Below are positions 39,814-56,084 of a DNA stretch of 59,946 nt, one piece after another. The stretch is from Anaerolineae bacterium (lineage in GTDB: Bacteria; Chloroflexota; Anaerolineae; Aggregatilineales; Phototrophicaceae). A program made the translations under genes and the position numbers. The stretch is from contig JALOOG010000026.1 of NCBI GenBank assembly GCA_025454525.1, positions 1 to 59,946 of the forward strand. Direction: 5' to 3'. Under the pieces are notes generated by a model. That model saw only the letters and a list, made by a program, of their open reading frames with translations. It did no database searches and was not told the origin of the DNA. The number at the start of each line of letters is the position of its first letter. Positions within the stretch are counted from its first letter, which is position 1.

Positions 39814-40568
39814 ATGACGACTAGGGTTCCGAAAAATACCCCACGCGATGGACGGTTGATCCTCGTGGTGGATGATGAACCGCGCATGATTGGTTTTATC
39901 CGCATGAACCTTGAACTAGAGGGACATCGGGTGATCGAAGCGCACAACGGACTAGGCGCGCTAGAGGCGATCCGTACCAAACTGCCTGATCTGGTCTTAT
40001 TGGATGTGATGATGCCAGAGTTAGACGGTTTTGAGACCTTGCGAATGTTGCGCGAGTTTTCTAGCATTCCGGTGATCATGTTGACCGCTAAAGGTGAGGA
40101 AAACGATAAGGTTTACGGGTTAGAATTAGGGGCCGACGATTACATTACCAAACCGTTCGGGCCGCGTGAACTCACAAGCCGGATTAAAGCAGTGTTGCGT
40201 CGTGCTGAAATGCCGTCATCTTCACCCGATCAAGCTCTTCACCCGATCAAGCAGTGCTGAAGATTGATGATCGACTCCAAGTAGACTTTAACCGTCGTGA
40301 AGTGATCGTCGAAGGTGAACATCTTAAGCTCCGCCCTACCGAGTATCGCCTGTTGTATCATTTGATCGAAAATGCGGGTTGGACGGTGCCGCATGATCAA
40401 TTGTTGGCGAAAGTTTGGGGATATGAGTATCGCGATGAAGCGCACTATGTCCGCTTATATGTGAACTATTTGCGCGAAAAAATTGAAGAAGACCCCGCCA
40501 ATCCTAAATACATCCTCACGGAACGCGGGGTTGGCTATCGCTTCGTTGATTTCAAACGCCCAAGTTGA
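39814..40568 (+). pseudogene. OmpR-type response regulator split by a frameshift
   Basis: The first frame (39814-40260) is a receiver domain: 'LILVVDDEPRMI', phosphoacceptor Asp64 in 'LLDVMMPELDGF', 'VIMLTAKG', and 'GADDYITKPF'. The second (GTG 40254-40568) is the winged-helix output domain: '[17 protein letters not shown]', '[15 protein letters not shown]', '[11 protein letters not shown]'. The frames differ because TCTTCACCCGATCAAGC occurs twice in tandem at the junction; removing one 17-base copy restores one continuous ~245-residue OmpR-type protein. Ribosome site GGAGG precedes the ATG. Coupled re-initiation at GTG 40254 (GTGCTGA overlap) could still yield separate domains. A sequencing or assembly error is another possibility. 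Confidence 0.85.
40219..40252 (+). repeat. 17-bp tandem duplication inside the response regulator gene
   Basis: TCTTCACCCGATCAAGC at 40219-40235 is repeated exactly at 40236-40252. Seventeen is not a multiple of three, so the reading frame shifts. Confidence 0.95.
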
Positions 40569-40707: not shown

Positions 40708-43700
40708 GTGACACTGAATACACAACTCCGCCATAATCCAATTGCCATCATCGGCATGGGGGCGCTATTCCCACAGGCACGCAATTTACGTGAGTTTTGG
40801 AACAATATCATCGGGAAGGTCGATTCGATCACCGATGTCCCCGAAACCCATTGGAAAATTGAAGATTATTACGATCCCGATCCCACCACCCCCGATAAAA
40901 CCTATTGCAAACGGGGTGGTTTCTTGCCAGAGGTAGACTTTGATCCGATGGAGTTTGGTTTACCCCCGAACATCCTTGAAGTGACCGATGTCTCACAAAT
41001 GTTAGGGCTTTTGGTCGCTAAAGAGGCCTTACAAGACGCGGGTTATCTGAACACCACGCCGGAAGTCCGCGAACGGATGGGGATCGTCTTAGGGGTCGGC
41101 GGCGGTCAAAAGCAGATCGTCCCACTCTCATCACGTCTGCAATATCCGGTCTGGCGTGAGGTGTTATTGGCCAGCGGTGTCTCGGAACAAGACGCGGAAA
41201 CGATTATCGAAAAGATCAAACTCGCTTACATCCGTTGGGAAGAAAACTCGTTCCCCGGCATGTTGGGCAACGTGATCGCGGGTCGGATCGCGAATCGTTT
41301 TGACCTTGGCGGGATCAATTGTGTCACCGATGCTGCGTGCGCCAGTTCCATGAGCGCGCTCAAATTGGCGCTTAGCGAATTAACAGAAGGCCGCGCCGAT
41401 ATGATGATCACGGGCGGCGTAGACACCGATAACTCGATCGTGATGTACATGAACTTCAGCAAAACCCCGGCCTTCACCAGAGGTGATGTGCCGCGTCCAT
41501 TTGACGCAAAATCAGATGGCATGATGGTTGGTGAAGGGATTGGCATGATCATCCTAAAACGTCTGGACGATGCGATCCGCGATGGTGATAAGATCTACGC
41601 AGTGATCAAAGGGATCGGCTCATCCAGTGATGGACGTTTTAAGAGCATTTACGCGCCCCGCGGCGAAGGCCAAGAAAAAGCACTAAAACGCGCCTATGAG
41701 GATGCGGGATTCTCTGCCTCTACCGTTGCGTTATTTGAAGCCCATGGGACAGGCACAATCGCGGGTGATACGACGGAAGTTACGACGGCCGTTCGTTACC
41801 TCAACAGTATCGATCCCCGTAAACAACACATCGCCTTAGGCAGCGTAAAATCCCAGATCGGACATACAAAAGCGGCGGCCGGCGCGGCGGGCTTGATCAA
41901 AGTGGCCTTAGCGTTACACCATAAGACGATCCCCCCGACTCTCAATGTTACCGAACCAAATCCAAAATTTGATCTCGAAACATCGGCGTTCTATATCAAT
42001 ACGGAAAGCCGTCCCTGGGTGCGTGAAGGGGATACACCACGCCGCGCCGGGGTGAGTTCATTCGGTTTTGGTGGGACAAATTTCCATGTGGTCTTAGAAG
42101 AATACACGGGTGATCATCAAGGTGCGTATCGTTTGCATCAAAACGCGCAAATGGTCATTTTCCATGCACCTTCCCCTGCTCACTTGCAAACGACGATCGC
42201 GGAAGCGATGCAAGCCCTCAAAGGTGATGACGCGGATCGCCATTTCCTGAATTATGTGCAAGCTTCCCGCCAACCGAACATCCCCACGCAAAATGCCCGC
42301 GTTGGGTTTGTGGCAAGCGATCCCGCTGAAGCGGTGACTTTGTTAAGCGCGGCGGCGGATCTGCTAAAATCGAAGGCGGATGCGGACGAATGGCAACATC
42401 CCAAAGGGGTATTTTATCGTCGTAATAGCTTAAACTTGGCTGGCCGCGTCGTGGCGTTATTTGCGGGTCAAGGATCGCAATACTTGGAAATGGGGCGTGA
42501 ATTGGCCTTGAACTTCCCAGATATGCGTGAAGCGTTCGGGCAAATTGACACCTTGTTAGAACGTGACGGTAAAACCACCCTATCAAATGTGGTCTATCCC
42601 CGTCCGGCGTTTAGCGACACCGAAAAACAGACCCAAGAAGCCCAACTGCAAAGCACCGATTACGCGCAACCGTCGATCGGCGCGATCAGCGCAGGTATGT
42701 TTAAGATCTTACAACGTGCGGGTTTCCGTCCCGATTTCACGGCCGGTCATAGCTTCGGTGAAGTATCAGCGTTATGGGCGGCGGGGGTTCTCAACGATGC
42801 CGATTATTACACCTTAGTCAAGGCGCGTGGCGCGGCGATGGCCCGTCCGAATGATCCGCATTTTGACGCGGGGACGATGTTGGCCGTTACGGGGGATGTG
42901 CCAGCAATTGAACGCGAGGCCGCTAACTTGGCTGGGATCAAAGTGGCCAACCGCAATTCACGGACGCAAGTGGTTTTAGCAGGCGCAACCAAAGATATTC
43001 TGAATGCCGAGGCCGCCCTCAAAGCCAAGGGGTATCGCACGGTATTACTGAATGTAGCGGCCGCTTTCCATACCCCCCTAGTGGGACACGCGCAAAAACC
43101 GTTCGCGCAAGCGATCAACAACGTGACGTTTAATGCGCCGAAAAGCAAAGTTTATGCGAATGCGACTGCACAACCCTATCCGGCAGATCCCGCGCAAATG
43201 AAACAAATGTTAGGGGATCATATCCTGCAATCGGTCTTGTTCCGTGATCAGATCGAAAATATCTATGCAGCGGGTGGGTATCTGTTTGTCGAATTTGGGC
43301 CGCGGAATGTCCTCACCAACTTGGTAAAAGACATCCTTACGGATAAACCCCATGTCGCGATTGCCTTGAATCCGAGTCGGCAAAAAGACAGCGATCGGCA
43401 ATTCCGTGAAGGTGTGGTGCAGTTGGCGGTGTTAGGCTTAAACCTCAATAACATCGATCCGTATCACCAAGATCCGGAATATCCGGCCAAAAAGAAGGCG
43501 ATGACCGTCAAGTTAAACGGTGCGGCTTTTATCAGTGATAAGACCCGTCAAGCGTACCAAAATGCCTTGAGCGATGGTTTCCAAGTGGTGACTCCGGTGT
43601 CACAAGATCAAACACCGACGTTCCCGCAACCACAACCGATGCCCATGCCACAACCGCAAACCGTGCCGTCACCGCAAATTGAGCCGTTGCCACAACCGGA

Positions 43701-46686
43701 CATTGAACCGTTACCCGATCCGAATCAACCGGATAGCAGCGCATTGCTACAAAGTTTAGAGATCGCCTTGAATCAATTGCGTGATCATCAACATGAGACG
43801 CAACAAGCGCAAGAACAATTCCAACAGAATCAAGCGGAATATTTCCGCATCTTCTTCCAACTGACCCAACAGCAACAGCAGATGATGGGGAGCGTTTCGC
43901 CGCAAGTGATGGACTCGATCACCCAAAGCATGATGCGTTTCCATGATCACCAAGCGGAAACACTCCGGTTACATGAGCGTTTTGTGCAAGAACAATCCAC
44001 CATCGCGCACACCCTGTTAGAGGTGATCCGACAACAATATGCGGCCCTAGCCCATGCGCCGGCCGTCGCTGTGCCGACCTTGACTCGTCCAGCGATCGTT
44101 AAACCCGCGCCGGCCCCAGTCCAACCCGTGACTCAAGCGATCGTTCCCACGCCTGCTCCGGTGGTGAGCGCGCCCATTGCGCCTAGCGCACCTGTGACTG
44201 TAGCTGTCTCAAGCGGTGGCGTTGACCTCAAAGCATTAGAATCCGCGATGTTACGGATTGTCGGTGATAAAACTGGTTATCCGATGGACATGCTAGAACT
44301 TGACATGGACATGGAAGCGGACTTGGGCATCGACTCGATCAAACGGGTGGAGATCTTGGGCGCGATGCGCGATGATTTCCCGAATTTACCGCAATTCAGT
44401 CCAGAAGAATTAGGCGAATTACGTACCTTACGGCAAATTGTCGATTACATGCGCGCATCAGTGAGCGGTCAACCGACTCCGCCCCCCGCGCCACAAGGCG
44501 GTCATCCCCCAGTGAAAGTCGAAGTTACACCGACTCCAGTCCATGCGGCTGTTCCAGTGAGTGCGGCAAGTACAGGGGGAGTCAATTTACAAGCGCTAGA
44601 ATCCGCGATGTTACGGATCGTCGGTGATAAAACCGGCTACCCGTCGGACATGCTTGAGCTTGACATGGATATGGAAGCGGATCTCGGAATCGACTCGATC
44701 AAACGGGTCGAGATCTTAGGCGCGATGCGCGATGATTTCCCGAATCTACCGCAATTCAGTCCAGAAGAATTAGGTGAATTACGCACCTTACGGCAAATTG
44801 TCGATTACATGCGCGCTTCAGTGAGTGGACATGCCACGCCCATGCCGACTCCGGTGATCACCCCGATAACACCGCCGCCAGCACCTACTCCCACCCCTGT
44901 AGCCAGTGGGGTGAATGGGAGCGGAGTCAACGCGCAAGCGTTAGAAGCCGCGATGTTACGGATTGTCGCCGATAAAACCGGGTATCCATCGGATATGCTA
45001 GAGTTAACGATGGACATGGAAGCAGATCTTGGCATCGACTCGATCAAGCGCGTAGAGATCTTAGGCGCGATGCGTGATGAGTTTCCACAATTGCCGCAAT
45101 TCAGCCCGGAAGAATTAGGTGAATTACGCACCTTAGGCCAAATCGTCGATTACATGCGTCAAGCGGTCAACGCAGGCCATAGCCAACCTGTCAACACGCC
45201 TGTTACCGCCCCGGCACCCGTAGGGACGATCGCCGCTCCTTCTCACGATGGAGTCAATGCACAAGCGCTAGAATCCGCGATGTTACGGATCGTGGCCGAT
45301 AAAACCGGTTATCCGGCGGACATGCTAGAGTTAACGATGGACATGGAAGCCGATCTTGGCATCGACTCGATCAAGCGCGTGGAGATCTTAGGCGCGATGC
45401 GTGATGAGTTCCCACAATTGCCGCAATTCAGCCCGGAAGAATTAGGCGAATTACGCACTTTGGGTCAAATTGTCGATTACATGCGTCAAGCGGTCAACGG
45501 CGGTCATCAACCTACCCCCACACCCACACCAAGCGCCCCCGCGCCACAAACTGCTAACGCGCCTGTTAATGCGGTGAGCGCACCGAATGGCAACGGATCG
45601 CCAAGTGGTGGTGGTATTGACTTGAGCGCGTTACAAGCGGCGATGTTGCGGATCGTGGCCGATAAAACCGGTTATCCGGCGGACATGCTAGAGTTAACGA
45701 TGGACATGGAAGCCGATCTTGGGATCGACTCCATCAAGCGCGTGGAGATCTTAGGCGCGATGCGTGATGAGTTCCCACAATTGCCGCAATTCAGCCCGGA
45801 AGAATTAGGCGAATTACGCACTTTGGGTCAGATTGTGGATTATATGCGGGCTTCTATGCAGGAGGTGAAAGGCGCTGATCACAGTGCCACCTTTCGTGCC
45901 GAATCCGCATTGATGGACATGACTCATAACCAAGTCAACGAGCTGTTGCCTGTAACCCCCATGCCCACCGATCACGGCATTCAACGGAGTGTCGTTGAGC
46001 GGCGTTACTTGCCGACTCCTGATTGGTTTGATTTTTCGATAGCACCCGGTAGTGTATGTGTGATCACGGATGAAGGGACACCCTTAACCGCCGAAATTGC
46101 ACAACAGATACGCGCTCAAGGGTGGCAAGTTGTGGTTTTAAGCTTCCCGCAAACCTTGATCGCGACACAAGCATCGTTACCACAAGGTGTTACCCGCATG
46201 ACCTTAGCGGATATGAGCGAGACGGCCTTGCAGACCACCTTGAAACAGATCGGGAATATCGGGGCGTTTGTCCACCTGAATCCGACCGCTAACCTCCATA
46301 ACGGCACACTGTTTATCCAACATGAAAAAGCGATCGTTAAACACGTTTTCTTGATCGCGAAGCATCTCAAAGCGGCCCTAAATGCCAATCAAAGCGGCCG
46401 TAAAGCGTTTATCACACTCACCCGTTTAGATGGCGCACTTGGCACCGATGCCTCCAACGCTTACGGCACGATCACCGGGGGGTTGTTCGGGTTGGTGAAA
46501 ACGCTCAACTTGGAATGGGAACAGGTCTTTTGTCGTGCCTTAGACTTTACACCGACGGCCGCGGCAAACCAAATCGCACAAGACCTGATCGCCGAATTAC
46601 ACGATCCAAATCGCCTAATTACTGAAGTGGCTTATGGGCCACAGGGACGTGCGACCTTAATCGCACGCAAAACCGAGTTCGCTTAA
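40708..46686 (+). CDS. pfaA: PfaA-like polyunsaturated fatty acid synthase subunit: KS-AT-5xACP-half KR
   Basis: 1992 residues from GTG 40708, after TTAGGAAA. The ketosynthase (8-455) has Cys211 (DAACASS), His346 (EAHGTGT) and His386 (SQIGHTKAAAG). The acyltransferase (about 575-880) has Ser682 in GHSFGEVSALWAAG, the PfaA-type motif for malonyl transfer. A Pro/Gln-rich region with coiled-coil character (925-1165) is followed by five near-identical ACPs with G-I-D-S-I-K and serines 1210, 1330, 1445, 1554 and 1675. The last ~270 residues match the structural, non-catalytic half of a ketoreductase. Known PfaA proteins continue through the catalytic KR and a DH; here those are in the next gene. 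The system would elongate malonyl units iteratively in the cytosol. The product (PUFA, or another long lipid as in hgl-type synthases) cannot be read from sequence. Confidence 0.93.
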   Translation: MTLNTQLRHNPIAIIGMGALFPQARNLREFWNNIIGKVDSITDVPETHWKIEDYYDPDPTTPDKTYCKRGGFLPEVDFDPMEFGLPPNILEVTDVSQMLGLLVAKEALQDAGYLNTTPEVRERMGIVLGVGGGQKQIVPLSSRLQYPVWREVLLASGVSEQDAETIIEKIKLAYIRWEENSFPGMLGNVIAGRIANRFDLGGINCVTDAACASSMSALKLALSELTEGRADMMITGGVDTDNSIVMYMNFSKTPAFTRGDVPRPFDAKSDGMMVGEGIGMIILKRLDDAIRDGDKIYAVIKGIGSSSDGRFKSIYAPRGEGQEKALKRAYEDAGFSASTVALFEAHGTGTIAGDTTEVTTAVRYLNSIDPRKQHIALGSVKSQIGHTKAAAGAAGLIKVALALHHKTIPPTLNVTEPNPKFDLETSAFYINTESRPWVREGDTPRRAGVSSFGFGGTNFHVVLEEYTGDHQGAYRLHQNAQMVIFHAPSPAHLQTTIAEAMQALKGDDADRHFLNYVQASRQPNIPTQNARVGFVASDPAEAVTLLSAAADLLKSKADADEWQHPKGVFYRRNSLNLAGRVVALFAGQGSQYLEMGRELALNFPDMREAFGQIDTLLERDGKTTLSNVVYPRPAFSDTEKQTQEAQLQSTDYAQPSIGAISAGMFKILQRAGFRPDFTAGHSFGEVSALWAAGVLNDADYYTLVKARGAAMARPNDPHFDAGTMLAVTGDVPAIEREAANLAGIKVANRNSRTQVVLAGATKDILNAEAALKAKGYRTVLLNVAAAFHTPLVGHAQKPFAQAINNVTFNAPKSKVYANATAQPYPADPAQMKQMLGDHILQSVLFRDQIENIYAAGGYLFVEFGPRNVLTNLVKDILTDKPHVAIALNPSRQKDSDRQFREGVVQLAVLGLNLNNIDPYHQDPEYPAKKKAMTVKLNGAAFISDKTRQAYQNALSDGFQVVTPVSQDQTPTFPQPQPMPMPQPQTVPSPQIEPLPQPDIEPLPDPNQPDSSALLQSLEIALNQLRDHQHETQQAQEQFQQNQAEYFRIFFQLTQQQQQMMGSVSPQVMDSITQSMMRFHDHQAETLRLHERFVQEQSTIAHTLLEVIRQQYAALAHAPAVAVPTLTRPAIVKPAPAPVQPVTQAIVPTPAPVVSAPIAPSAPVTVAVSSGGVDLKALESAMLRIVGDKTGYPMDMLELDMDMEADLGIDSIKRVEILGAMRDDFPNLPQFSPEELGELRTLRQIVDYMRASVSGQPTPPPAPQGGHPPVKVEVTPTPVHAAVPVSAASTGGVNLQALESAMLRIVGDKTGYPSDMLELDMDMEADLGIDSIKRVEILGAMRDDFPNLPQFSPEELGELRTLRQIVDYMRASVSGHATPMPTPVITPITPPPAPTPTPVASGVNGSGVNAQALEAAMLRIVADKTGYPSDMLELTMDMEADLGIDSIKRVEILGAMRDEFPQLPQFSPEELGELRTLGQIVDYMRQAVNAGHSQPVNTPVTAPAPVGTIAAPSHDGVNAQALESAMLRIVADKTGYPADMLELTMDMEADLGIDSIKRVEILGAMRDEFPQLPQFSPEELGELRTLGQIVDYMRQAVNGGHQPTPTPTPSAPAPQTANAPVNAVSAPNGNGSPSGGGIDLSALQAAMLRIVADKTGYPADMLELTMDMEADLGIDSIKRVEILGAMRDEFPQLPQFSPEELGELRTLGQIVDYMRASMQEVKGADHSATFRAESALMDMTHNQVNELLPVTPMPTDHGIQRSVVERRYLPTPDWFDFSIAPGSVCVITDEGTPLTAEIAQQIRAQGWQVVVLSFPQTLIATQASLPQGVTRMTLADMSETALQTTLKQIGNIGAFVHLNPTANLHNGTLFIQHEKAIVKHVFLIAKHLKAALNANQSGRKAFITLTRLDGALGTDASNAYGTITGGLFGLVKTLNLEWEQVFCRALDFTPTAAANQIAQDLIAELHDPNRLITEVAYGPQGRATLIARKTEFA

Positions 46687-46702
46687 ATCACAGCAATACA
46701 AC

Positions 46703-46730
46703 AGGGGCGGGTATCAGAAAACCCGCCCCT
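46703..46730 (+). other. Intercistronic hairpin between the two halves of the PfaA-like synthase
   Basis: Ten-base GC-rich stem AGGGGCGGGT (46703-46712) / ACCCGCCCCT (46721-46730), eight-base loop, no T-tract. The ribosome site GGGAG of the next gene starts six bases later. It may tune read-through or mRNA stability rather than end the transcript. Confidence 0.7.
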
Positions 46731-46749
46731 TCACTGGGAGATTGTTTTC

Positions 46750-48480
46750 ATGCCAAAGATCAATTCCTCAACCGTCTTTATCGTTAGCGGTGGTGCAAAA
46801 GGCATCACCGCTCGTTGTGTGGTTGAGTTAGCCAAATTTTACCGCTGTAAATTTATCCTTTTGGGGCGTTCTGCCCTCAAAGACAGCGAACCCGCATGGG
46901 CGCAAGGGGTTCAGACCGACGCAGAACTCAAAAAGCGGGCAATGGCCGATATGCAAGGGCGTGGTGAAAAACCCACCCCTGCCGCGGTCAATAAAGCGAT
47001 CAATGCGGTTTATTCACAACGCGAGATCGTCGATACTTTACAAGACATTCAAGCGGCCGGTGGACAAGCGATCTACCTAAGCGCCGATATTACCGATGCG
47101 AACGCCGTTAAAACCGCTGTACAGTCCGCGTCCCATTTTGGGCAAATTAGCGGCATTATCCATGGCGCAGGCAATTTAGCCGATAAGTTGATCGAAAACA
47201 AAAGTGAAGCCGATTTTGAGTGGGTTTATTCTGCCAAGGTAGACGGACTCGAACACTTACTCAACGCGATCGCCCCTTCACAATTGGATTATCTGGTGTT
47301 GTTCTCCTCTGTGGCCGGCTTTTATGGCAACATTGGACAAGCCGATTATGCCTTAGCCAATGAGATCCTCAATAAAACCGCGCATCGTTTCCAAGCCCTT
47401 TATCCCCATACCCGCGTGGTTTCGATCAATTGGGGACCATGGGACGGCGGCATGGTGACACAACAACTACGGGATTATTTCAACAAACTCAACATCAAAA
47501 TTATCCCCGTTGAAGTCGGGACACGCATGTTGATCCACGAATTAGAGGCCGAACCTAAGGCGACTCAAGTGGTGATCGGAAGTCCGATCGTTGCGCCCCC
47601 CACCCCACAAAGCCCGGAATTGATCACACATCAGATCAAACGTAAATTAGCGCTAAAGGCGAGTCCGTTCTTACAAGATCATGTGGTGGATGAAAAAGCG
47701 GTGTTGCCAATGGTTGCAGCGATGTCTTGGATGTCTAGCACCGCCGAAGGGATCTATCGCGGTTATCGTTATTACGGTTTTGACCATTACAAAGTCCTCA
47801 AAGGCATTGTCTTTGACCAGACCCTCGCGGATGAGTATGTGCTGGATCTAAAAGAAGTGAGTAAATCACCGGAAAAAATCGTGCTTGAGGCGATGATCCG
47901 TAGCGAACAAAACGGTAAACCGCGTTTCCATTACAGCGCACAACTCACCTTACTTCAAGAGATCCCCGTCCCACCACGCCATGAAATCCCACAATATGCC
48001 GACGCGAATCGCACACCGATCCCCGGTCAAGTGTTGTATAACAATGGAACTTTGTTTCATCGTTTTAGCTTTCAGGGTGTGCAGGAAGTCACGATGATCA
48101 GCCGTGAAGGATTAACGATGCGTTGCTCTTTAGAGCCGATCGATCTGCGCTATCAAGGTCAATTTCCGGTGCAGGCCTTTAACTACTTCATGGCCGATAT
48201 TGGTTTACAAGCGATTGGGATTTATGCCCGACATTTCTATGACGCGGGCAGTTTACCCTTGCGCGCCATGCACGGCGAACATTTTATGAATGTGGACTTT
48301 GGCCAAACCTTTTTTGTGACCATGCGGGTCTTGTCTGCTACCTCCACCGATATTTCGGCGGAGATCATCCTCTACGATGAGCATCAGCGCATCTATATGA
48401 TCGTCTCCGATATTGCCGTGACCATGAGTAAAAACTTGAATCCGATGTTTTTACGCAATCGGTTGCCGGAAACGCTTTGA
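46750..48480 (+). CDS. Ketoreductase-dehydratase subunit (C-terminal part of a PfaA-like synthase)
   Basis: 576 residues. It begins directly with the catalytic KR Rossmann domain: 'VFIVSGGAKGITARCVVELA', 'LLGRSAL', 'GQISGIIHGAG', Ser in 'VLFSSVAGFYGNIGQ', Tyr in 'ADYALANEILN', and 'SINWGPWDGGMV'. From ~300 to the end is a PKS-DH-like hot-dog region: 'SPFLQDHVVDEKAVLPMVAA' matches the 'DH….VLP' dehydratase entry seen at the C-terminus of PfaA. Together with the end of the previous gene it makes one complete KR, so the two products must associate. It reduces the beta-keto intermediate with NADPH and likely begins dehydration. GGGAG at 46736-46740 shows it is a separate, translated gene and not a frameshift. 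Confidence 0.9.
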   Translation: MPKINSSTVFIVSGGAKGITARCVVELAKFYRCKFILLGRSALKDSEPAWAQGVQTDAELKKRAMADMQGRGEKPTPAAVNKAINAVYSQREIVDTLQDIQAAGGQAIYLSADITDANAVKTAVQSASHFGQISGIIHGAGNLADKLIENKSEADFEWVYSAKVDGLEHLLNAIAPSQLDYLVLFSSVAGFYGNIGQADYALANEILNKTAHRFQALYPHTRVVSINWGPWDGGMVTQQLRDYFNKLNIKIIPVEVGTRMLIHELEAEPKATQVVIGSPIVAPPTPQSPELITHQIKRKLALKASPFLQDHVVDEKAVLPMVAAMSWMSSTAEGIYRGYRYYGFDHYKVLKGIVFDQTLADEYVLDLKEVSKSPEKIVLEAMIRSEQNGKPRFHYSAQLTLLQEIPVPPRHEIPQYADANRTPIPGQVLYNNGTLFHRFSFQGVQEVTMISREGLTMRCSLEPIDLRYQGQFPVQAFNYFMADIGLQAIGIYARHFYDAGSLPLRAMHGEHFMNVDFGQTFFVTMRVLSATSTDISAEIILYDEHQRIYMIVSDIAVTMSKNLNPMFLRNRLPETL

Positions 48481-48517: not shown

Positions 48518-48547
48518 TGCCTCACATGACGAGAAGTGTTTAGATCC

Positions 48548-51500
48548 ATGACTATGAGTGCCTATCACGATAAAATTGCAATTATCGGGGTGGCGTGCCT
48601 ATTTCCCGGTGCGTCTACCCCTCAAGAATTTTGGCAAAACCTCGTTGAGGGGAAAAATGTCACCTCGGCCGCGAGTGCGACCGAATTTCGCGAGCTTTAT
48701 TATGATCCGGCTAAACAACGCCGCGATACCTCCTATTTCACCCGTGGCGGTTATGTCCGTCAATTTGACCCGAATAACCCATTAGATCGTGCCTTTCAAT
48801 GGTCATTATATGTGGCCGAAGAAGCCCTTAAAGACAGTGGTTATCGGCAGCGCGGCGATCTGTTGGCGCGCACGGGCTTGATTTTAGGCAATTTGTCTTT
48901 TCCAACCCGCGACTCACATCAATTGTTTGCATCGTTATACGATCAACCGATGACCGAGGCGATCGCCGCCCTGTTAGATCGTCCTGTAACATTGAACAAT
49001 GTCACCGATACCCGTCAAGTGGATCTGTTGAATGCCTTGACCGCGGGTTTACCCGCCGCCTATGTCAGCCAACGGATCGGCTTAGGGGTGACTGAATTTG
49101 CGATCGATGCCGCTTGTGCTTCTTCACTTTATGCGATGGGACTCGCCTGTGATTATTTAGGCGCGGGCAAAGCGGATCTGATGTTAGCCGGAGCGGTCAG
49201 TGCCGCCGATCCCTTATTTGTCAACATGGGTTTTACCAATTTTGGCGCATATCCGGATAAAAATGACTCGCGTCCGTTAGACTCGAATTCAGGCGGTTTG
49301 ATCTCAGGTGAAGGCGCGGGCATGTTTGTCTTAAAACGCTATAGCGACGCGCTCCGCGATGGAGATCGCATTTACGCGGTGATCACCGGAGTCGGCTTAG
49401 CCAACGATGGGCGCGGTAAACACCCCTTGACCCCGAATCCCCGTGGCCAAATTTTGGCCTTTCAGCGCGCTTATGCCAATGGTGATCTTGATCCCGCCTT
49501 GGTGCAATATGTCGAATGCCATGCCAGCGGCACCCCCCTAGGTGATAAAACCGAGATCAACTCATTAGATGACTTTTTCGGCGGGCGTGGTTCAAAAGCA
49601 CCGTTGATCGGGTCGGTGAAGTCAAATATGGGCCATCTGCTCACTACGGCCGGCATGGCCAGTATGCTTAAAGTTATTTTGAGTATGCACCATGGACTGA
49701 TTCCGGCTACGATCGGCGTAACACAACCGCTTACTTCGCAAAATCATACCTTTGGCACAGGGCAAATTGTCGCACAAAATACCCCTTGGGCCGTCGATAA
49801 TCGGATCGCCGGAGTCAATGCTTTTGGCTTTGGGGGGGTGAGCGCGCACTTGGTTTTGACACAATCGGCACAACCTTACCCTACCCCCGCCTATCGTCCG
49901 GCCAAACTAGCGGTGATCGGCATGGATGCTCATTTCGGGCCGGTAGAAGGTGTGAAAGCATTCGCCCAAACGATCTACAACGGCACACAACATTTTATCC
50001 CCTTGCCGCCGAAACGTTGGAAAGGGATGCACACCGCTGAGGCACCATTAGGCGCGTATATTGACTCGTTTGATGTCGATTTTATGCGCTTTAAAGTCCC
50101 ACCGAAAGAGGATGATCAACCGATCCCCCAACAACTGCTGTTGTTAAAAGTGGCCGATCAAGCGGTACAAGATGCTGGTTTACATGAAGGCGATAATGTG
50201 GCGGTGATCGTCGCTGTCGGGACAGAGTTAAGCTTACATCAATACCGCGGCCGTCTCGACCTCTCTTGGAAATTACCAGACGCACTTGCACAATCTGGGA
50301 TCGCGCTGCCACATGAGCAGTACGATGCACTTGAAGGCATTGCCAAAGACGCACTCAACCCACCCGCGCAAGTGAATCAGTACACAAGCGCGATCGGAAA
50401 CATCGTAAGCAGTCGAGTATCGGCGTTATGGAACTTCTCTGGCCCGGCGTTTACGCTCTCATCGGAAGAAAATTCGACGTTTAAGGCCTTAGAAGTAGCG
50501 GGGTTACTTCTGGCAGATGATGCGATCGACGCGGTGGTGATCGGCGCGGTAGATCTGGCCGGCGGGTTAGAAAGTGTCATGTTGCGTCGGGAATTGCATC
50601 CGATCAACAGCGGAACACAAACCTTAAGTTTTGATCAAAACGTCAACGGTTGGATGGTCGGTGAAGGCGCGGGCGCGATCGTCTTAAAACGTGCCGATCG
50701 GGTTCGCAAAGAAGATCAAGTTTATGCGGTGATCGATAGTGTGGCCTTGGTCAAAGGGGGTGACACCGCCATTGAACAAGCTGCCGGACGTGCCATGAGC
50801 GAAGCGCAAATCACCGTTGATCAGATCGGCTATGTTGAAGCGCATGGAAGCGGGATTACCGAAGAAGATCGCGCCGAGATCATCGGGTTAAATCGAGTCT
50901 ATCGCGGTCAACGGGAACACATCGCGATCGGGAGTATCAAAGCGAACATCGGGAACACCTTCGCCGCATCGGGCATGGCGAGTTTGATCAAGTCGATTTT
51001 ATGTCTGTACTATCGCATGATCCCACAAACGCCGAATTGGTCAACACCAAAACAAGCCGATATGTGGTCAGAGACGTTCTATGTTCCCCAAGAGTCGCGT
51101 ACATGGATCAGCAATGGTCGGCGTTATGCCGCGATCAACGGCTTAGGCATAGATGGGACGGCCGCGCATGTGATCTTATCCGAAGGCACACATCATCGCG
51201 ATCTTGATTACCTACAAAGCAAACCGCTCCAATTGATCTTGATCGATGGTGATACCAAAGCGGGCCTGATGGGTCGTTTAGGTCAAATGGAAACCGCGCT
51301 GAATGAAGGAAACGCCTTGCCCATTTTAGCGAGACGTGCCTTTAACGTTTACCGTAATCGATCCTTTGTCTTGGCTTTAGTCTCTAAAGATCGGGATGGA
51401 TTGCGGAAAGAGATCGAAGCGGCCAAAAAAGCCTTGATGCAAGCGGATGAGTGGCAAACGCCCGCCGGAAGTTATTTCACGGCAAATCCGGTGGGACAAG

Positions 51501-54115
51501 ACGGTGGGATCGCCTTTGTATACCCCGGCGCGTTTAATTCCTATCCGGGACTCGGCCAAGAGTGGTTGCATTTGTTCCCAACCGCCCATGATCATCTGTT
51601 ATCAATCACACAAGATGCGGTCAGTTCCGTTGCCGATCCCTTTTTGTATCAACGTAGCTTAGCGGCCCCTTCACGGGCTGAAGTGCGTGCGTTCCGGGCG
51701 CGGATAGCCGAAGATCAAGCGGCGATGATGGCCTCTGGCACAACTTTTGCGGTTTTATTCACCTATGTCATGCGTGAGGTATTCAAGATCAAGCCAACCT
51801 CGGCCTTTGGTTATAGCATCGGCGAAGGCAGCATGTTATGGGCGATGGGCGTATGGTATGAAGGCGATAAAGGCAATCAACGCCTCTTGAATTCAGAGCT
51901 ATTCAAAACGCGCTTGTATGGGCGCAAGCAAGCGGTGCGCGAAATGTGGGGATTACCCGAATCGGCCAGTGATGACTTTTGGGCCTCATATGTGCTTACA
52001 ACCTCAATGGACAAGGTAATCACTGCCCTATCAGGTGAGGCGCGGGTCTATTTAACCCACGTCAACACGCCTAACGAAACCGTGATCGCGGGTGATCCGG
52101 TGGCATGTGAGCGGGTGATCGCCAAAATTGGATGTAATTCCTTGCGTGCGCCGTTTGAAGTGGTGATCCACAATGAAGCGATGATCTCTGAATATCATCA
52201 ATTCTACGAATTGCATCATTACGCGGTGAACCCGGCCGTACAAGCGCAAAATGTGACCTTTTACTCCGCGGCGGACTACCTCCCGATCCAACTCAATAGC
52301 GAGGTGATCGCCCGAAATGTAGCGCGAGTCTCTTGTAAAACAGTGGATTTCCCGCGTTTGATTCAGCGTGCTTATCAAGACGGCGCTCGGATCTTTATTG
52401 AACTCGGGCCGGGTAGCACTTGCGCCCGTTGGGTCAGCGATACGTTAGCGGATCATCCTCATTTAGCCGTTTCGATCGACAACCTACGCGCCGATGATCA
52501 CACCGCTTTAATCAAGATGTTAGCACGATTAGCGAGTCATCGCGTTTCGATGGATCTGGCACCGTTATACCAAGATCTCAACACCGAGTCGGCGGATCGT
52601 AAATCACTCCTTAAATCGATCACCTTGGGCGGAGAACGGATCGAAGAAGTGATCGTGACCGATCACAACCGCCGCCGCATCAGCGGAGCGACCGAACGCA
52701 CCCTATCATCAGAGCGCGCTATTCCTGCATCAGGAGGCGTTACTTCTCCCGCCATGTATGGAACAGAAACTCACACATCTACTACTCCTGCCATGTATGG
52801 AACGGAAGCTCACACATCTACTCCCCTCTCCATGTATGGAGAGGCGTCGGGGGTGAGGTCACGCCTCGACTCCCTCCGCGAAATCGGCGCAGCCATCGCC
52901 GCACAACTTCAAGCGCCCCATGAAGTGACGATCATGCCACCGACTCCGGTTAAGCCGACTCCCCCACCCGCCACCAATCGCTTTACGCCGAGTCGGGCGA
53001 TCTTTGATACTGTCAAGATCGATCAATTCGCCCGCTTGCGGATCGCGGATTGTTTTGGTGAGGAATATGCGATCTATGATCACAAACGCGCACCTCGCAT
53101 CCCAAACACCGATCTGATGTTGGTATCGCGTGCGATTCAACTCAACGCCACACGCTTGATCACCAAGGCCGGAAGTAGCTTAGTGATGGAATACGATGTC
53201 CCCGCCGATATGTGGTTTTACGGTGATAATAGCTACCCGATCGCCCCTTATTCGATGTTGATGGAAATGGCATTACAACCCTGCGGGTTCTTATCGGCGT
53301 ATATGGGCCCCACGTTTGACTTCCCCGACATTGATTTTTACTTCCGTAACTTAGACGGTGTAGGACATCTTACTGAAGATGTCGATTTACGTGGACGCAC
53401 GCTCACCAACCGCGTTGAGTTGGTCAGTTCCACCACGCTACAAGGGATCATCATCCAAAAATACTTGTTTGACATGACCCTAGACGGAAAATCGTTCTAC
53501 ACCGGAAATTCGACGTTCGGTTACTTCACTTTACAAGCGCTATCCAGTCAAGCCGGCCTAGACATGGGTAAACCGCCCGCGAAATGGCACGAGGCGAATC
53601 CGGCGCATCCGCTCACCGCCTTGAAAGGCAATCGGGCCGGACAAATGTTAGATGACTCCGGTTATATGAACTTGCCGCAGGGTCAATTGGCATTTGTGGA
53701 TGATTTACAACTCACCTTGAATGGCGGATCCAAGGGCTTAGGTTATGTGTGGGCGACCAGCAATGTCGATCCGCGTGATTGGTTCTTTAAATGCCATTTC
53801 CACCAAGACCCAGTGATGCCTGGATCACTTGGGTTAGAGACAATCACCCAAGCGATCCAAGCTTACGCGATTCAGGCCAATTTAGGCAAAGGGTTCAAAC
53901 AACCACGCTTTGCCAACGCGGAAGATCACAAGATGATCTGGAAATATCGCGGCCAAGTCTTGAGCGATAGCAAATTGATCAACGTAGAAGTGGACATCAC
54001 CGGGATCGAACGCAAAGGGGATCAATTGGTGATTACCGCCAACGCGAGTCTTTGGAAAGGTGCGCTCCGCATTTACGAATTTAAAAACGTCGCGATCGCG
54101 ATCGAAGAAGGTTGA
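48548..54115 (+). CDS. pfaC: PfaC-like subunit fused to an acyltransferase: KS-CLF-AT-DH-DH
   Basis: About 1855 residues; ATG 48548 or 48554 follow GAGAAG, while the frame opens at a GTG at 48536. The first KS (to ~445) has Cys190 (DAACASS) with 'VECHASGT' and 'GSVKSNMGHLLTTAG'. The second KS-like unit (~450-890) is a chain-length factor, with 'SGPAFTLSSEENSTFKALE' lacking the Cys. The AT (~985-1310) has Ser1090 in GYSIGEGSM, the PfaB-like form. After a linker, two FabA-like hot-dogs follow: the first with 'YPIAPYSMLMEMALQPCG', the second with 'CHFHQDPVMPGSLGLE', which has the catalytic His. Gammaproteobacterial systems keep PfaB and PfaC separate; this fused order matches the myxobacterial Pfa3 layout without its terminal acyltransferase. 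The dehydratase/isomerase pair is what would place double bonds. Confidence 0.92.
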   Translation: MTMSAYHDKIAIIGVACLFPGASTPQEFWQNLVEGKNVTSAASATEFRELYYDPAKQRRDTSYFTRGGYVRQFDPNNPLDRAFQWSLYVAEEALKDSGYRQRGDLLARTGLILGNLSFPTRDSHQLFASLYDQPMTEAIAALLDRPVTLNNVTDTRQVDLLNALTAGLPAAYVSQRIGLGVTEFAIDAACASSLYAMGLACDYLGAGKADLMLAGAVSAADPLFVNMGFTNFGAYPDKNDSRPLDSNSGGLISGEGAGMFVLKRYSDALRDGDRIYAVITGVGLANDGRGKHPLTPNPRGQILAFQRAYANGDLDPALVQYVECHASGTPLGDKTEINSLDDFFGGRGSKAPLIGSVKSNMGHLLTTAGMASMLKVILSMHHGLIPATIGVTQPLTSQNHTFGTGQIVAQNTPWAVDNRIAGVNAFGFGGVSAHLVLTQSAQPYPTPAYRPAKLAVIGMDAHFGPVEGVKAFAQTIYNGTQHFIPLPPKRWKGMHTAEAPLGAYIDSFDVDFMRFKVPPKEDDQPIPQQLLLLKVADQAVQDAGLHEGDNVAVIVAVGTELSLHQYRGRLDLSWKLPDALAQSGIALPHEQYDALEGIAKDALNPPAQVNQYTSAIGNIVSSRVSALWNFSGPAFTLSSEENSTFKALEVAGLLLADDAIDAVVIGAVDLAGGLESVMLRRELHPINSGTQTLSFDQNVNGWMVGEGAGAIVLKRADRVRKEDQVYAVIDSVALVKGGDTAIEQAAGRAMSEAQITVDQIGYVEAHGSGITEEDRAEIIGLNRVYRGQREHIAIGSIKANIGNTFAASGMASLIKSILCLYYRMIPQTPNWSTPKQADMWSETFYVPQESRTWISNGRRYAAINGLGIDGTAAHVILSEGTHHRDLDYLQSKPLQLILIDGDTKAGLMGRLGQMETALNEGNALPILARRAFNVYRNRSFVLALVSKDRDGLRKEIEAAKKALMQADEWQTPAGSYFTANPVGQDGGIAFVYPGAFNSYPGLGQEWLHLFPTAHDHLLSITQDAVSSVADPFLYQRSLAAPSRAEVRAFRARIAEDQAAMMASGTTFAVLFTYVMREVFKIKPTSAFGYSIGEGSMLWAMGVWYEGDKGNQRLLNSELFKTRLYGRKQAVREMWGLPESASDDFWASYVLTTSMDKVITALSGEARVYLTHVNTPNETVIAGDPVACERVIAKIGCNSLRAPFEVVIHNEAMISEYHQFYELHHYAVNPAVQAQNVTFYSAADYLPIQLNSEVIARNVARVSCKTVDFPRLIQRAYQDGARIFIELGPGSTCARWVSDTLADHPHLAVSIDNLRADDHTALIKMLARLASHRVSMDLAPLYQDLNTESADRKSLLKSITLGGERIEEVIVTDHNRRRISGATERTLSSERAIPASGGVTSPAMYGTETHTSTTPAMYGTEAHTSTPLSMYGEASGVRSRLDSLREIGAAIAAQLQAPHEVTIMPPTPVKPTPPPATNRFTPSRAIFDTVKIDQFARLRIADCFGEEYAIYDHKRAPRIPNTDLMLVSRAIQLNATRLITKAGSSLVMEYDVPADMWFYGDNSYPIAPYSMLMEMALQPCGFLSAYMGPTFDFPDIDFYFRNLDGVGHLTEDVDLRGRTLTNRVELVSSTTLQGIIIQKYLFDMTLDGKSFYTGNSTFGYFTLQALSSQAGLDMGKPPAKWHEANPAHPLTALKGNRAGQMLDDSGYMNLPQGQLAFVDDLQLTLNGGSKGLGYVWATSNVDPRDWFFKCHFHQDPVMPGSLGLETITQAIQAYAIQANLGKGFKQPRFANAEDHKMIWKYRGQVLSDSKLINVEVDITGIERKGDQLVITANASLWKGALRIYEFKNVAIAIEEG
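52752..52844 (+). repeat. 39-bp tandem repeat in the PfaC-like linker, ending in a palindrome
   Basis: CCATGTATGG recurs at 52752, 52791 and 52830, spaced exactly 39 bases (13 codons). The encoded units are PAMYGTETHTST, PAMYGTEAHTST and PLSMYGEASG. The third unit is the palindrome CCTCTCC-ATGTAT-GGAGAGG (52825-52844) followed by GGGGGTGAGG, resembling an intergenic-type repeat element inserted in frame in the AT-DH linker. Confidence 0.75.
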
Positions 54116-54148: not shown

Positions 54149-55765
54149 ATGCAGGATAACGGTTTAAGTGCCAATACCTCAGCACGTTCATGGAGCGGCA
54201 ACCCCGCTTCTCTCGTTTATGATGAGACGGGGATCAAGTCCCGCCTCAATGACCTCTCACAACCGATCTATCTCGTCCAACACAACGGGCAGATCGGCGC
54301 AACTCATGAAGGACAACTCACCGTTGGCGGGCAATATCCCTTGGCCGCAATGGGTGATCCGATCGCGCCAGAGCAATTCGGGGATCATCGCTTTCAACAA
54401 GATTATGGGGTGCGCTATTCGTATACTTCGGGTGCAATGGCCGGTGGGATCGCATCTGCCGATCTGGTGATCGCGATGGGACAAGCCGGCTTTTTGGGTA
54501 TTTTTGGGGCGGCGGGGGTGGTAAGCACCCGCGTTGAAGATGCGATCCGCCGCATTCAAACAGAATTACCTCATCAAGCCTATGGCTTTAACTTGATCCA
54601 TAGCCCTAGCGAAGAAGCGATGGAACGGCGAGCGGTCGAGTTATATCTCCAATACGGTGTTACGATCGTTGAAGCATCCGCTTTTCTTGACCTCACCCCT
54701 CACATTGTGCGCTATCGTGCCGCTGGACTTAGCTTAGGTGCAAATGGTGAAGTCGTGATCAAAAATCGGGTGATCGCGAAAGTTTCACGGCGTGAAGTCG
54801 CTACCAAATTTATGGAGCCGGCCCCAGATCGTCTGCTACAACCATTGGTCGCACAAGGGCTAATCACCGCGCAACAAGCCGAATTGGCGAAGCGCGTCCC
54901 AGTGGCGGATGATGTCACAGTGGAGGCAGATTCCGGCGGTCACACCGATAATCGTCCCTTAGTTGGGATCTTGCCTTCGATCATGAGCTTGCGCGATGAA
55001 TTGCAAGCGAAACATCGTTTTAAGACTCCCGTTCGTGTCGGCGGCGGCGGCGGCATCGGCACCCCTTCGGCGGCATTGGCGGCATTTATGATGGGTGCGG
55101 CTTATATCGTCACCGGTTCGATCAATCAAGCGTGTGTTGAGGCCGGCACATCGGCACACACGAAGAAATTGTTGGCACAAGCGGATATGGCTGATGTGAT
55201 GATGGCCCCCGCCGCTGATATGTTTGAGATGGGTGTAAAAGTCCAATTGTTGAAACGTGGCACGATGTTCCCAATGCGCGCCCAACGTCTGTATGAACTC
55301 TATCGCCAATACAACTCAATTGACGAAATTCCGTCCGATGAACGCGAAAAACTTGAAAAACAAGTCCTTAAGCGCCCCATGGAAGACATTTGGCAAGACA
55401 CCGTTAACTATTTCATGGAACGCGATCCCGAACAAATTCACCGCGCTAAAGACAATCCGAAGCGCAAAATGGCGTTGATCTTCCGGTGGTATCTAGGTTT
55501 ATCCTCACGGTGGTCAACCAGTGGCGAAAAAGGCCGTGAAGCCGATTATCAGATCTGGTGTGGACCAGCCATGGGTGCTTTTAACAATTGGTCAGCGGGA
55601 TCTTATTTAGAACAACCGGAAAATCGGCGTGTTGCTGAAGTGGCTTATCACATGATGCGCGGCGCGGCTTATCTCTATCGGATGCAGCAACTCCGTTTAC
55701 AGGGGTTACAATTCACCCCTGCTTATGGAGTCTATCTACCGTCACCTGTGGTAAGCCATGCGTAA
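54149..55765 (+). CDS. pfaD: PfaD enoyl reductase of PUFA synthase
   Basis: 538 residues, the normal PfaD length. The FMN-binding TIM barrel is of the 2-nitropropane dioxygenase type: 'YSYTSGAMAGGIASADLVIA', 'GFLGIFGAAGV', 'YGFNLIHSPSEEAMERR', 'TVEADSGGHTDNRP', 'PVRVGGGGGIGTPSA', 'AAYIVTGSINQACVEAGTS'. The C-terminal PfaD part reads 'FRWYLGLSSRWS' and 'WCGPAMGAFNNW'. It reduces enoyl-ACP in those cycles where saturation is needed, acting in trans on the megasynthase. Ribosome site GGGAAGG about nine bases upstream. The next gene overlaps its stop by eight bases. Confidence 0.95.
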   Translation: MQDNGLSANTSARSWSGNPASLVYDETGIKSRLNDLSQPIYLVQHNGQIGATHEGQLTVGGQYPLAAMGDPIAPEQFGDHRFQQDYGVRYSYTSGAMAGGIASADLVIAMGQAGFLGIFGAAGVVSTRVEDAIRRIQTELPHQAYGFNLIHSPSEEAMERRAVELYLQYGVTIVEASAFLDLTPHIVRYRAAGLSLGANGEVVIKNRVIAKVSRREVATKFMEPAPDRLLQPLVAQGLITAQQAELAKRVPVADDVTVEADSGGHTDNRPLVGILPSIMSLRDELQAKHRFKTPVRVGGGGGIGTPSAALAAFMMGAAYIVTGSINQACVEAGTSAHTKKLLAQADMADVMMAPAADMFEMGVKVQLLKRGTMFPMRAQRLYELYRQYNSIDEIPSDEREKLEKQVLKRPMEDIWQDTVNYFMERDPEQIHRAKDNPKRKMALIFRWYLGLSSRWSTSGEKGREADYQIWCGPAMGAFNNWSAGSYLEQPENRRVAEVAYHMMRGAAYLYRMQQLRLQGLQFTPAYGVYLPSPVVSHA

Positions 55766-56084
55766 CGACATCATTTTTACCGATCATGCCCGCGAACGCT
55801 TGAAGCTTCGCAAGATCAGTGAGCAGATGGTGTTCACCACGCTTAAAAATCCCGAACGCACTGAAAATGAGGCGGACGGGGACACCAAATTTATCAAAAC
55901 CGTGCAGAAGCGTAATGTGCAGGTGATCGCCCGTTACTTGCCCGATCAAAAGAAATGGTTGATCGTCAGCGCTTGGGTGCGTGGTGAAGAAGATCCGATC
56001 CCGTTATGGAAACGGATCTTGTTATGGCCGTGGCGGTGGTTACGCGGCCGTTCTAAAACACGAGGGACTCGGCGTGACCGTTGA
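55758..56084 (+). CDS. DUF4258-like small protein in the Pfa operon
   Basis: 108 residues. 'IIFTDHARERLKLRKISEQM' and 'TTLKNPERTENEADGDTKFIKT…VQVIARYLPDQKKWLIVSAW' fit the DUF4258 pattern (H-A-x-x-R-x-x-x-R…, beta hairpins), a fold related to BrnT/RelE-like toxins. A basic, Trp-rich tail (WKRILLWPWRWLRGR) is added. It overlaps pfaD by eight bases and the phosphopantetheinyl transferase by eleven, so all three are translated together. No antitoxin-like gene accompanies it; a helper role in the lipid system is possible but unproven. Confidence 0.75.
   Translation: MRNDIIFTDHARERLKLRKISEQMVFTTLKNPERTENEADGDTKFIKTVQKRNVQVIARYLPDQKKWLIVSAWVRGEEDPIPLWKRILLWPWRWLRGRSKTRGTRRDR

Follow-up and report, generated by a model that had tools for sequence, protein, structure and literature searches.

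A pfa-type gene cluster on contig JALOOG010000026.1 of an Anaerolineae bacterium (assembly GCA_025454525.1) encodes a polyunsaturated fatty acid (PUFA) synthase of the PfaA type whose ketoreductase (KR) is divided between two genes. The stretch analyzed, hereafter the window, is 59,946 nt long. Gene 1 ends with the structural subdomain of the KR (KRs) and gene 2 begins with its catalytic subdomain (KRc). The same cut is conserved in relatives, the split persists in genomes where the halves are not adjacent, the catalytic residues are intact, and the halves joined into one chain give a confident model of a canonical KR. We consider it very likely that the PUFA-synthase-type KR is a two-protein enzyme whose halves pack in trans. 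The two proteins would then form a physical complex with reductase activity, in which KRs may serve as the attachment point.

The two halves of the ketoreductase and their junction

The two genes and the elements between them are, by position in the window:

40708..46686, + strand: pfaA-N (gene 1), 1992 aa; ketosynthase (KS) - acyltransferase (AT) - helical linker - five acyl carrier proteins (ACP) - C-terminal KRs; matches TIGR02813, and PP-binding in 5 stretches
45925..46683, + strand: KRs plus lead-in, a structural subdomain resembling short-chain dehydrogenases/reductases (SDR) and apparently catalytically dead; from fold and from a KRs hidden Markov model (275 bits, with the window sequence in the model's own seed)
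46684..46686, + strand: TAA stop, in the same frame as gene 2; from the sequence
46687..46749, + strand: intercistronic gap of 63 nt; from the sequence
46703..46730, + strand: 10-bp GC-rich hairpin with no T-run on the + strand; from RNA folding and a terminator-type scan
46736..46740, + strand: GGGAG, ribosome-binding-like, 9 nt 5' of the ATG at 46750; from the sequence
46750..48480, + strand: pfaA-C (gene 2), 576 aa; KRc (about aa 1-285) and a dehydratase (DH)-like C-terminal region; matches Pfam KR and TIGR02813

Gene 1 and gene 2 represent one PfaA, because together they cover the NCBIfam profile TIGR02813 (PfaA, 2582 positions) to its end. Gene 1 scored 2215 bits, above the cut-off of 1010.1; gene 2 scored 484.8 bits, below it, and matched profile positions 1993-2582. 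Where TIGR02813 has the whole KR on a single polypeptide, KRs and KRc lie on separate open reading frames (ORFs) here and likewise in relatives. At E<=0.001, Pfam KR matched gene 2 (aa 9-232) but not gene 1. The C-terminal 253 aa of gene 1 gave a lone weak SDR match (PF13561, E 3.4e-4, 20.7 bits versus a cut-off of 27), and PKS_DH_N matched the C-terminus of gene 2 with 24.4 bits, under its cut-off of 27. Gene 2 and KRs each have one match at E<=0.001 in the organism's own 5.24-Mb genome.

In fused rows (n=51) the end of the KRs profile and the start of the KRc profile are 16-50 residues apart, the distance being 17 or 18 in 34 of them. At split loci the upstream protein stops 2-18 residues past the KRs profile (8 in the window; longest in L063, L111 and L106), and the downstream protein starts mostly a few residues before the first KRc strand. 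The cut is thus in the KRs-KRc linker. An earlier note on this DNA had proposed a split at the subdomain boundary, the structural half on gene 1 and the catalytic half on gene 2, and this agrees with profiles, fold and relatives alike. The real stop, 63-base gap, hairpin and ribosome site that it placed between the genes are also there.

Gene 1 and gene 2 share a frame, with 21 open codons from the TAA to the ATG, so that a lone nonsense codon needed to be excluded. It is excluded because split junctions elsewhere use all three relative frames and because the halves are non-adjacent in some relatives; the note's statement that this is not a simple frameshift therefore stands. Among the 38 adjacent split junctions that we compared, each of the three relative frames is represented and a start codon was found for every KRc gene. 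The junctions span -11 to +294 nt, 19 of them at -11 to +11 and 19 at 42 to 294; start codons were chosen by rule, and single junction values (e.g. L033, L062, L115) may be wrong. That 19 of the 38 overlap or lie within 11 nt suggests translational coupling about half the time.

The hairpin region of the window folds strongly (83 nt, -27.5 kcal/mol versus a shuffled mean of -16.15, z -3.97). The terminator-type scan listed the hairpin on the - strand, and its pattern of 8-bp arms has one further exact match in the genome. The junctions of the two nearest relatives measure -8 and +4 nt and are too short for the window's stem, which is hence not common to the relatives. A conserved regulatory hairpin was considered and is not supported, since these junctions leave no room for it (relatives with longer gaps were outside the RNA folding).

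Conservation of the cut and its history

We searched a panel of 101 genomes, the organism's own and 100 relatives. A PfaA-type KRc-DH match was found in 9 of the 101, own included, the match in G017 being only an 89-aa piece at a contig end. ACP-KRs and KRc-DH follow one another as two genes in the own genome (G000), G042 (66% identity), G047, G006 and G087, while G066 has three genes, ACP / KRs (264 codons) / KRc-DH. G060, G036, G025, G009 and a second G087 locus, from the same order of organisms, carry fused genes of a different paralogue type (33-35% identical). KRs is 46-60% identical to that of the window in 6 relatives and in G101, and 23 positions are invariant across 25 KRs sequences.

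A census of 400 evenly drawn Chloroflexota genomes gave 12 matches at E<=1e-50. Eleven are PfaA-type, of which 10 are split (own included) and 1 is truncated by a contig end; the twelfth is of the fused paralogue type (36% identity). The split that the earlier note wanted sought in orthologous clusters is therefore present in G042, G047, G006, G087 and G066, and in 10/10 testable PfaA-type loci of the census. The phylum of the census is known from loci that are identical to named public ones (L156 = L037 and L159 = L061, both at 100% identity), and so 5 census loci are also among the 80 public loci that follow.

The best 80 of 582 loci from relatives in public data comprise 32 adjacent split and 46 fused loci, one with no KRs nearby (L041) and one that is cut (L057). 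Among the 22 labeled Chloroflexota, 20 are adjacent split, the others being L041 and one fused locus, L040. Those labeled Cyanobacteriota include 8 split loci (Nostoc, Microcystis, Cyanothece, Vasconcelosia) and 3 fused. Acidobacteriota, Gemmatimonadota, Actinomycetota (Actinoallomurus) and a metagenome-assembled genome (MAG) labeled Gracilibacteria contribute one split locus each; another Acidobacteriota locus is fused, as are all Pseudomonadota-labeled loci in the set. The same cut was seen in five phyla. The cluster of the MAG labeled Candidatus Gracilibacteria (L047) groups with cyanobacterial ones in the tree and is either mis-binned or transferred.

KRs is its own gene in 16 of the 32 split loci and part of the ACP protein in 15; L063 is truncated upstream. 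Stand-alone KRs was taken as a short ORF with no ACP match, and 14 of the 16 were inspected as whole loci (not L032, L049). L039 was counted here as it has a separate KRs ORF, although its profile match is in two pieces; this affects the III/IV labels of the tree and leaves the split/fused tests as they are. Four Chloroflexota loci, Thermoflexus-like and other (L038, L039, L042, L062), have four genes, KS-AT / ACP / KRs / KRc-DH, and come close to a dissociated synthase. Stand-alone KRs had a Pfam match in 0 of 3 tested, which is a warning for annotators. Of the 46 fused loci, 9 carry KRs-KRc-DH on an ORF lacking ACP, i.e. the Type D form discussed below (3 of the 9 inspected whole: L035, L040, L104).

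In four relatives, G017, G002, G034 and G101, the halves are not adjacent. In G017 the stop of ACP-KRs is followed directly (TAG GTG ATG) by an N6/N4 DNA methylase gene and then by an ORF with no Pfam match; pfaBC and pfaD lie on the strand opposite to ACP-KRs, and another contig has KRc after a Uma2-type ORF. In G034, of the same genus, KRc-DH is behind a divergent YwiC-like gene; the separation in G017 and G034 may be a single event. In G002 KRc-DH starts 9 nt after a D12-class adenine methylase gene. In G101 (Chloroflexaceae UBA1466) it is behind a divergent cytochrome c peroxidase gene, and KRs is a single gene of 393 codons (L150 5485-6663) on another contig, flanked by genes of the opposite strand. 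The first ~100 residues of this orphan KRs, a helical repeat, match the AT-ACP segment of the organism's own PfaA (36% identity, E 2.8e-16), and this segment is a possible docking element.

Methylase genes occupy the place where the halves normally meet at L153 3989-6650 (N6_N4_Mtase plus a neighboring ORF with no Pfam match) and at L113 11924-12730 (MethyltransfD12). From these genes in two relatives, the KRs/KRc junction looks as if it were an insertion site.

A tree of KRc-DH was built from 91 rows, leaving out L057 and L117 (short) and duplicate short loci. A single fused ORF in close relatives, which the earlier note took as the sign of a recent break or an assembly error, was not found: in the 7-row clade around the window, KRs could be seen in 5 rows (counting the window), all of them split, and the remaining 2 carry no fused KRs. 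The nearest fused Chloroflexota-labeled locus, L040, is 45% identical and falls outside this clade. Split and fused forms require at least 6 changes on the tree, and a single clade of all split rows was rejected (p-AU 0.00039; labels from gene structure, tested after the tree had been seen). Rooted on fused paralogues, the tree gives a single early split and five re-fusions at equal costs. If a re-fusion costs three times as much, it gives four splits, and the two re-fusions that remain are L040 and a clade of 50 rows from cyanobacteria, proteobacteria and others. Support is starred for 46 of 88 inner branches, 24 are open, and long branches lead to L106, L087 and the outgroup. The evidence for the 6 changes, for their direction and for rejecting one split clade is thus moderate, and with modest backbone support the direction is tentative. 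The tree suggests that fission and fusion both went on at the KRs-KRc point, and the KR of marine gammaproteobacterial PfaA may be a re-fusion of formerly separate genes.

Structure, mechanism and alternatives

To obtain a structure model, the halves were joined through the stop (560 residues) and folded with alignment A1. Its 77 rows were the query and 35 of 46 fused sequences, together with KRs-only (21 of 32) and KRc-only (20 of 32) stretches. The model has a pLDDT of 92.5 and a pTM of 0.93, with low confidence at the termini and in the untranslated linker. Polyketide synthase (PKS) ketoreductases are its best structural matches and span both halves: 5d2e (Z 36.8, 3.5 A, 446 residues) and EryKR1 2fr0 (Z 35.3, rmsd 3.3 A, 440 residues, model 15..560). 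By this model the joined chain is a complete PKS-type KR with structural and catalytic subdomains packed together. The model also aligned to human FASN (8eyi_E, 347 residues over 1109..2112) and to the MAS-like 5bp4_G (439 residues over 1180..1999). The span in 8eyi_E implies a large insertion between the same two KR halves in human FASN, presumably the enoyl reductase.

Four residues of KRc, K, S, Y and N, are invariant in 37/37 split and 51/51 fused rows (88/88), and we take them to be the catalytic tetrad positions of the PfaA-type family; residues and distance matrices were counted over the rows of the KRc-DH tree minus L062, L004 and L113. The tetrad residue letters are those in the available text of PMC5331325. 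In KRs the corresponding columns, picked by eye against the SDR motif, show a variable Tyr position and no Lys. Over the 88 rows the Tyr position is occupied by F 31, A 20, S 9, Y 8 and other residues; at the Lys position K is absent (Q 32, S 21, G 16, A 11, T 4, H 2, P 2). KRs is apparently an SDR-like fold without active-site residues.

Stand-alone KRs from Nostoc (L031), folded alone, gave a pLDDT of 90.6 and a pTM of 0.87 and matched SDR enzymes at Z 18-19. General SDR enzymes such as FabG came first, and among the 50 matches listed there was one KR-containing synthase (6ulw_D, 671..895). In a sequence search of solved structures FabG-like SDRs were likewise best and PksJ was far down. As far as such a model goes, these matches fit a pseudo-SDR; by themselves they do not name a KR. 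The fold matches include BbsCD (7pcs) and human ketoacyl reductase (4cql), SDR enzymes made of two gene products; these are not parts of type I synthases, and the likeness is that of the general SDR fold only. In heteromeric SDR reductases one partner can be inactive.

We believe that the best reading is a KR that forms in trans from two SDR halves, one dead and one active, with the cut at the point where a domain is inserted in animal fatty acid synthase (FAS). The C-terminal ~230 residues of the KS-AT-ACP5 protein would fold as the KRs knob, SDR-like with its active-site residues lost, and the N-terminal ~285 residues of the gene 2 protein as the NADPH-binding catalytic subdomain, followed by the DH-like region. 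The two would pair in trans through the interface used in single-chain PKS ketoreductases, and this pairing would link the KR-DH protein to the ACP-bearing protein, so that reduction and dehydration take place beside the tandem ACPs. As KRs has no recognizable active site, its likely roles are to stabilize KRc and to hold it on the scaffold. More tentatively, and with rather less than even confidence, we suggest that a dead SDR subunit and an active SDR-DH subunit form an obligate heterodimer. KRs would be the address label, taking the role of a docking domain by recruiting a mobile KR-DH to the tandem-ACP scaffold. In UBA1466 the free KRs, with its helical segment resembling the AT-ACP linker, would be the next stage of that logic. 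The earlier note had reasoned that a functional KR would need the two proteins to assemble in trans, and trans assembly is strongly supported by sequence comparison and modeling.

Several points weigh against this assembly. The evidence is computational, the complex being predicted from sequences and from the joined-chain model. That model used a joined chain and an alignment with 35 fused homologues among 77 rows; it indicates that the halves are compatible, and binding in trans is not thereby shown. When only split rows were aligned (A2), MAFFT placed the KRs rows on KRc (12-19% identity), and no fold was obtained from A2. The KRs and KRc distance matrices correlate to a similar degree in both kinds of row (r 0.861 in split rows, 0.873 in fused), mostly a reflection of shared ancestry. 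KRs was not found in 2 of the 10 genomes searched, G002 and G034; pfaA-N there runs off contig ends, so all that these two show is that KRs is not directly upstream of KRc. The non-adjacent cases come from draft assemblies, two of them from one genus, and fused L040 shows that the split is not universal within the phylum.

The alternatives fare less well. A recent nonsense mutation or assembly error that broke one gene in this genome fits the single in-frame stop between the halves. We give it next to no chance, as close orthologues in which both halves are visible have their split at that very place and five phyla share the cut; the relatives rule out a nonsense mutation, a frameshift and an assembly error alike. 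One recoded gene, in which read-through or programmed frameshifting gives some fused PfaA, would account for the shared frame, the 21 open codons and a strong hairpin just past the stop. We find it very improbable: a stop-free 21-codon gap in the same frame arises by chance about 1 time in 8 (1/3 x 0.37, assuming even base use), the frames, spacings and KRc start codons of the 38 junctions speak against it, and a single recoded gene can hardly account for the non-adjacent arrangements.

It is also conceivable that KRs is a leftover and that KRc alone works as a FabG-like reductase that needs no partner. Single-domain SDR reductases exist, all catalytic residues are on KRc, and KRs was not found in the two genomes named above. 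We think this quite unlikely, however, given the conservation of KRs and its retention as its own gene, even unlinked; moreover, both genomes lacking it are those with pfaA-N cut by contig ends. The earlier note had further suggested that splitting would allow the cell to adjust the amount of KR-DH relative to KS-AT-ACP. The gap, hairpin and ribosome-binding-like site of the window agree with this, and KRc-DH appears to begin its own unit in G017, G034 and G101. Such a purpose nevertheless seems unlikely and is unsupported beyond the gap itself, since half of the junctions overlap or are close and the hairpin is impossible at those of the nearest relatives.

The surrounding cluster and known synthases

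The whole pfa-type cluster looks complete and lies on the + strand within the window. Besides the two genes above, it contains:

48536..54115, + strand: pfaBC fusion, KS - second KS (chain length factor (CLF)-like) - PfaB-type AT - FabA-like DH; profile matches
54149..55765, + strand: pfaD enoyl reductase; TIGR02814, 693.7 bits
55981..56718, + strand: 4'-phosphopantetheinyl transferase (ACPS family), start codon uncertain; profile match

A DUF4258 ORF (55758-56084) shares 104 nt with the 5' end of the phosphopantetheinyl transferase ORF, which makes the true start of the latter uncertain. The AT-ACP linker of gene 1 (43735-44157, aa ~1010-1150) is a Q-rich segment, probably helical, with an internal repeat, and a homologous segment was found in the PfaA of UBA1466. 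Just 5' of pfaA an OmpR-type response regulator (39814-40568) is in two ORFs, receiver (39814-40260) and DNA-binding (40254-40568), with a perfect 17-bp tandem duplication (40219-40252) at the break that shifts the frame. The break may be a genuine inactivation, an artefact of assembly or a switch that works by slippage.

PfaA of Moritella, Colwellia and Psychromonas (TIGR02813) has the same KS-AT-ACPn-KRs-KRc-DH order and identical catalytic residues, but there KRs and KRc are one chain, whereas the window has two, cut between them. A split pfaA as such is already known. In the accessible text of Shulse and Allen 2011 (PMC3098273), Type D has pfaA1 [KS-AT-ACP5] and pfaA2 [KR], and of Type H the text says only 'split pfaA'; in the Aureispira pfa cluster (A. 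marina) the KR region is separate from pfaA, according to the corresponding part of PMC4882568. As far as these sources go, all three share with the window a pfaA in two genes and an AT/pfaB fused to pfaC. In Type D as described there, however, the cut precedes the whole KR, while in the window it lies inside the KR with KRs on gene 1, and the locus is not of Type D form.

Animal FAS and reducing PKS offer another parallel, since a long stretch of chain separates their pseudo-KR from their KR and the two still make one KR; there the halves are on one chain with a domain inserted between them, and here they are on two chains. The two KR subdomains are described in the available parts of PMC5331325 and PMC9899208. 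We found no description of a cut inside the KR in open-licence paper text (figures and supplements, which may show one, were outside the search), and the consulted portions of PMC12895367, PMC13311796 and PMC10308959 hold nothing on such a cut. It is wider and more stable than one genome could reveal.

Cyanobacterial clade II hybrid clusters are probably Type G of Shulse and Allen. According to the text of PMC13291983 (2026), their pfaA is divided in two, a Rossmann-fold gene of unknown function separates the parts, and pfaBC lacks CLF and, in Microcystis, KS. The Nostoc and Microcystis loci studied here are arranged KS-AT-ACP / KRs / KRc-DH, with the pfaBC make-up given in that text. Their KRs, like that of Cyanothece, is 45-50% identical to the window's (39% in Vasconcelosia). 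Since KRs occupies that position and pfaBC is unusual in the same way, we infer that the Rossmann gene is KRs; this probably explains the 'Rossmann protein of unknown function'.

Our results indicate that the KR domain of a type I synthase can come as two proteins, and that this arrangement is kept in several phyla, sometimes with the genes non-adjacent. The split is a lasting design and not a broken gene. It offers a natural, testable trans-complementing cut point for PUFA and polyketide synthase engineering, and a system in which to ask if the structural subdomain helps folding, partners in a dimer or provides a site for docking. It also gives a candidate identity for the 'unknown function' gene of the cyanobacterial hybrid lipid clusters.

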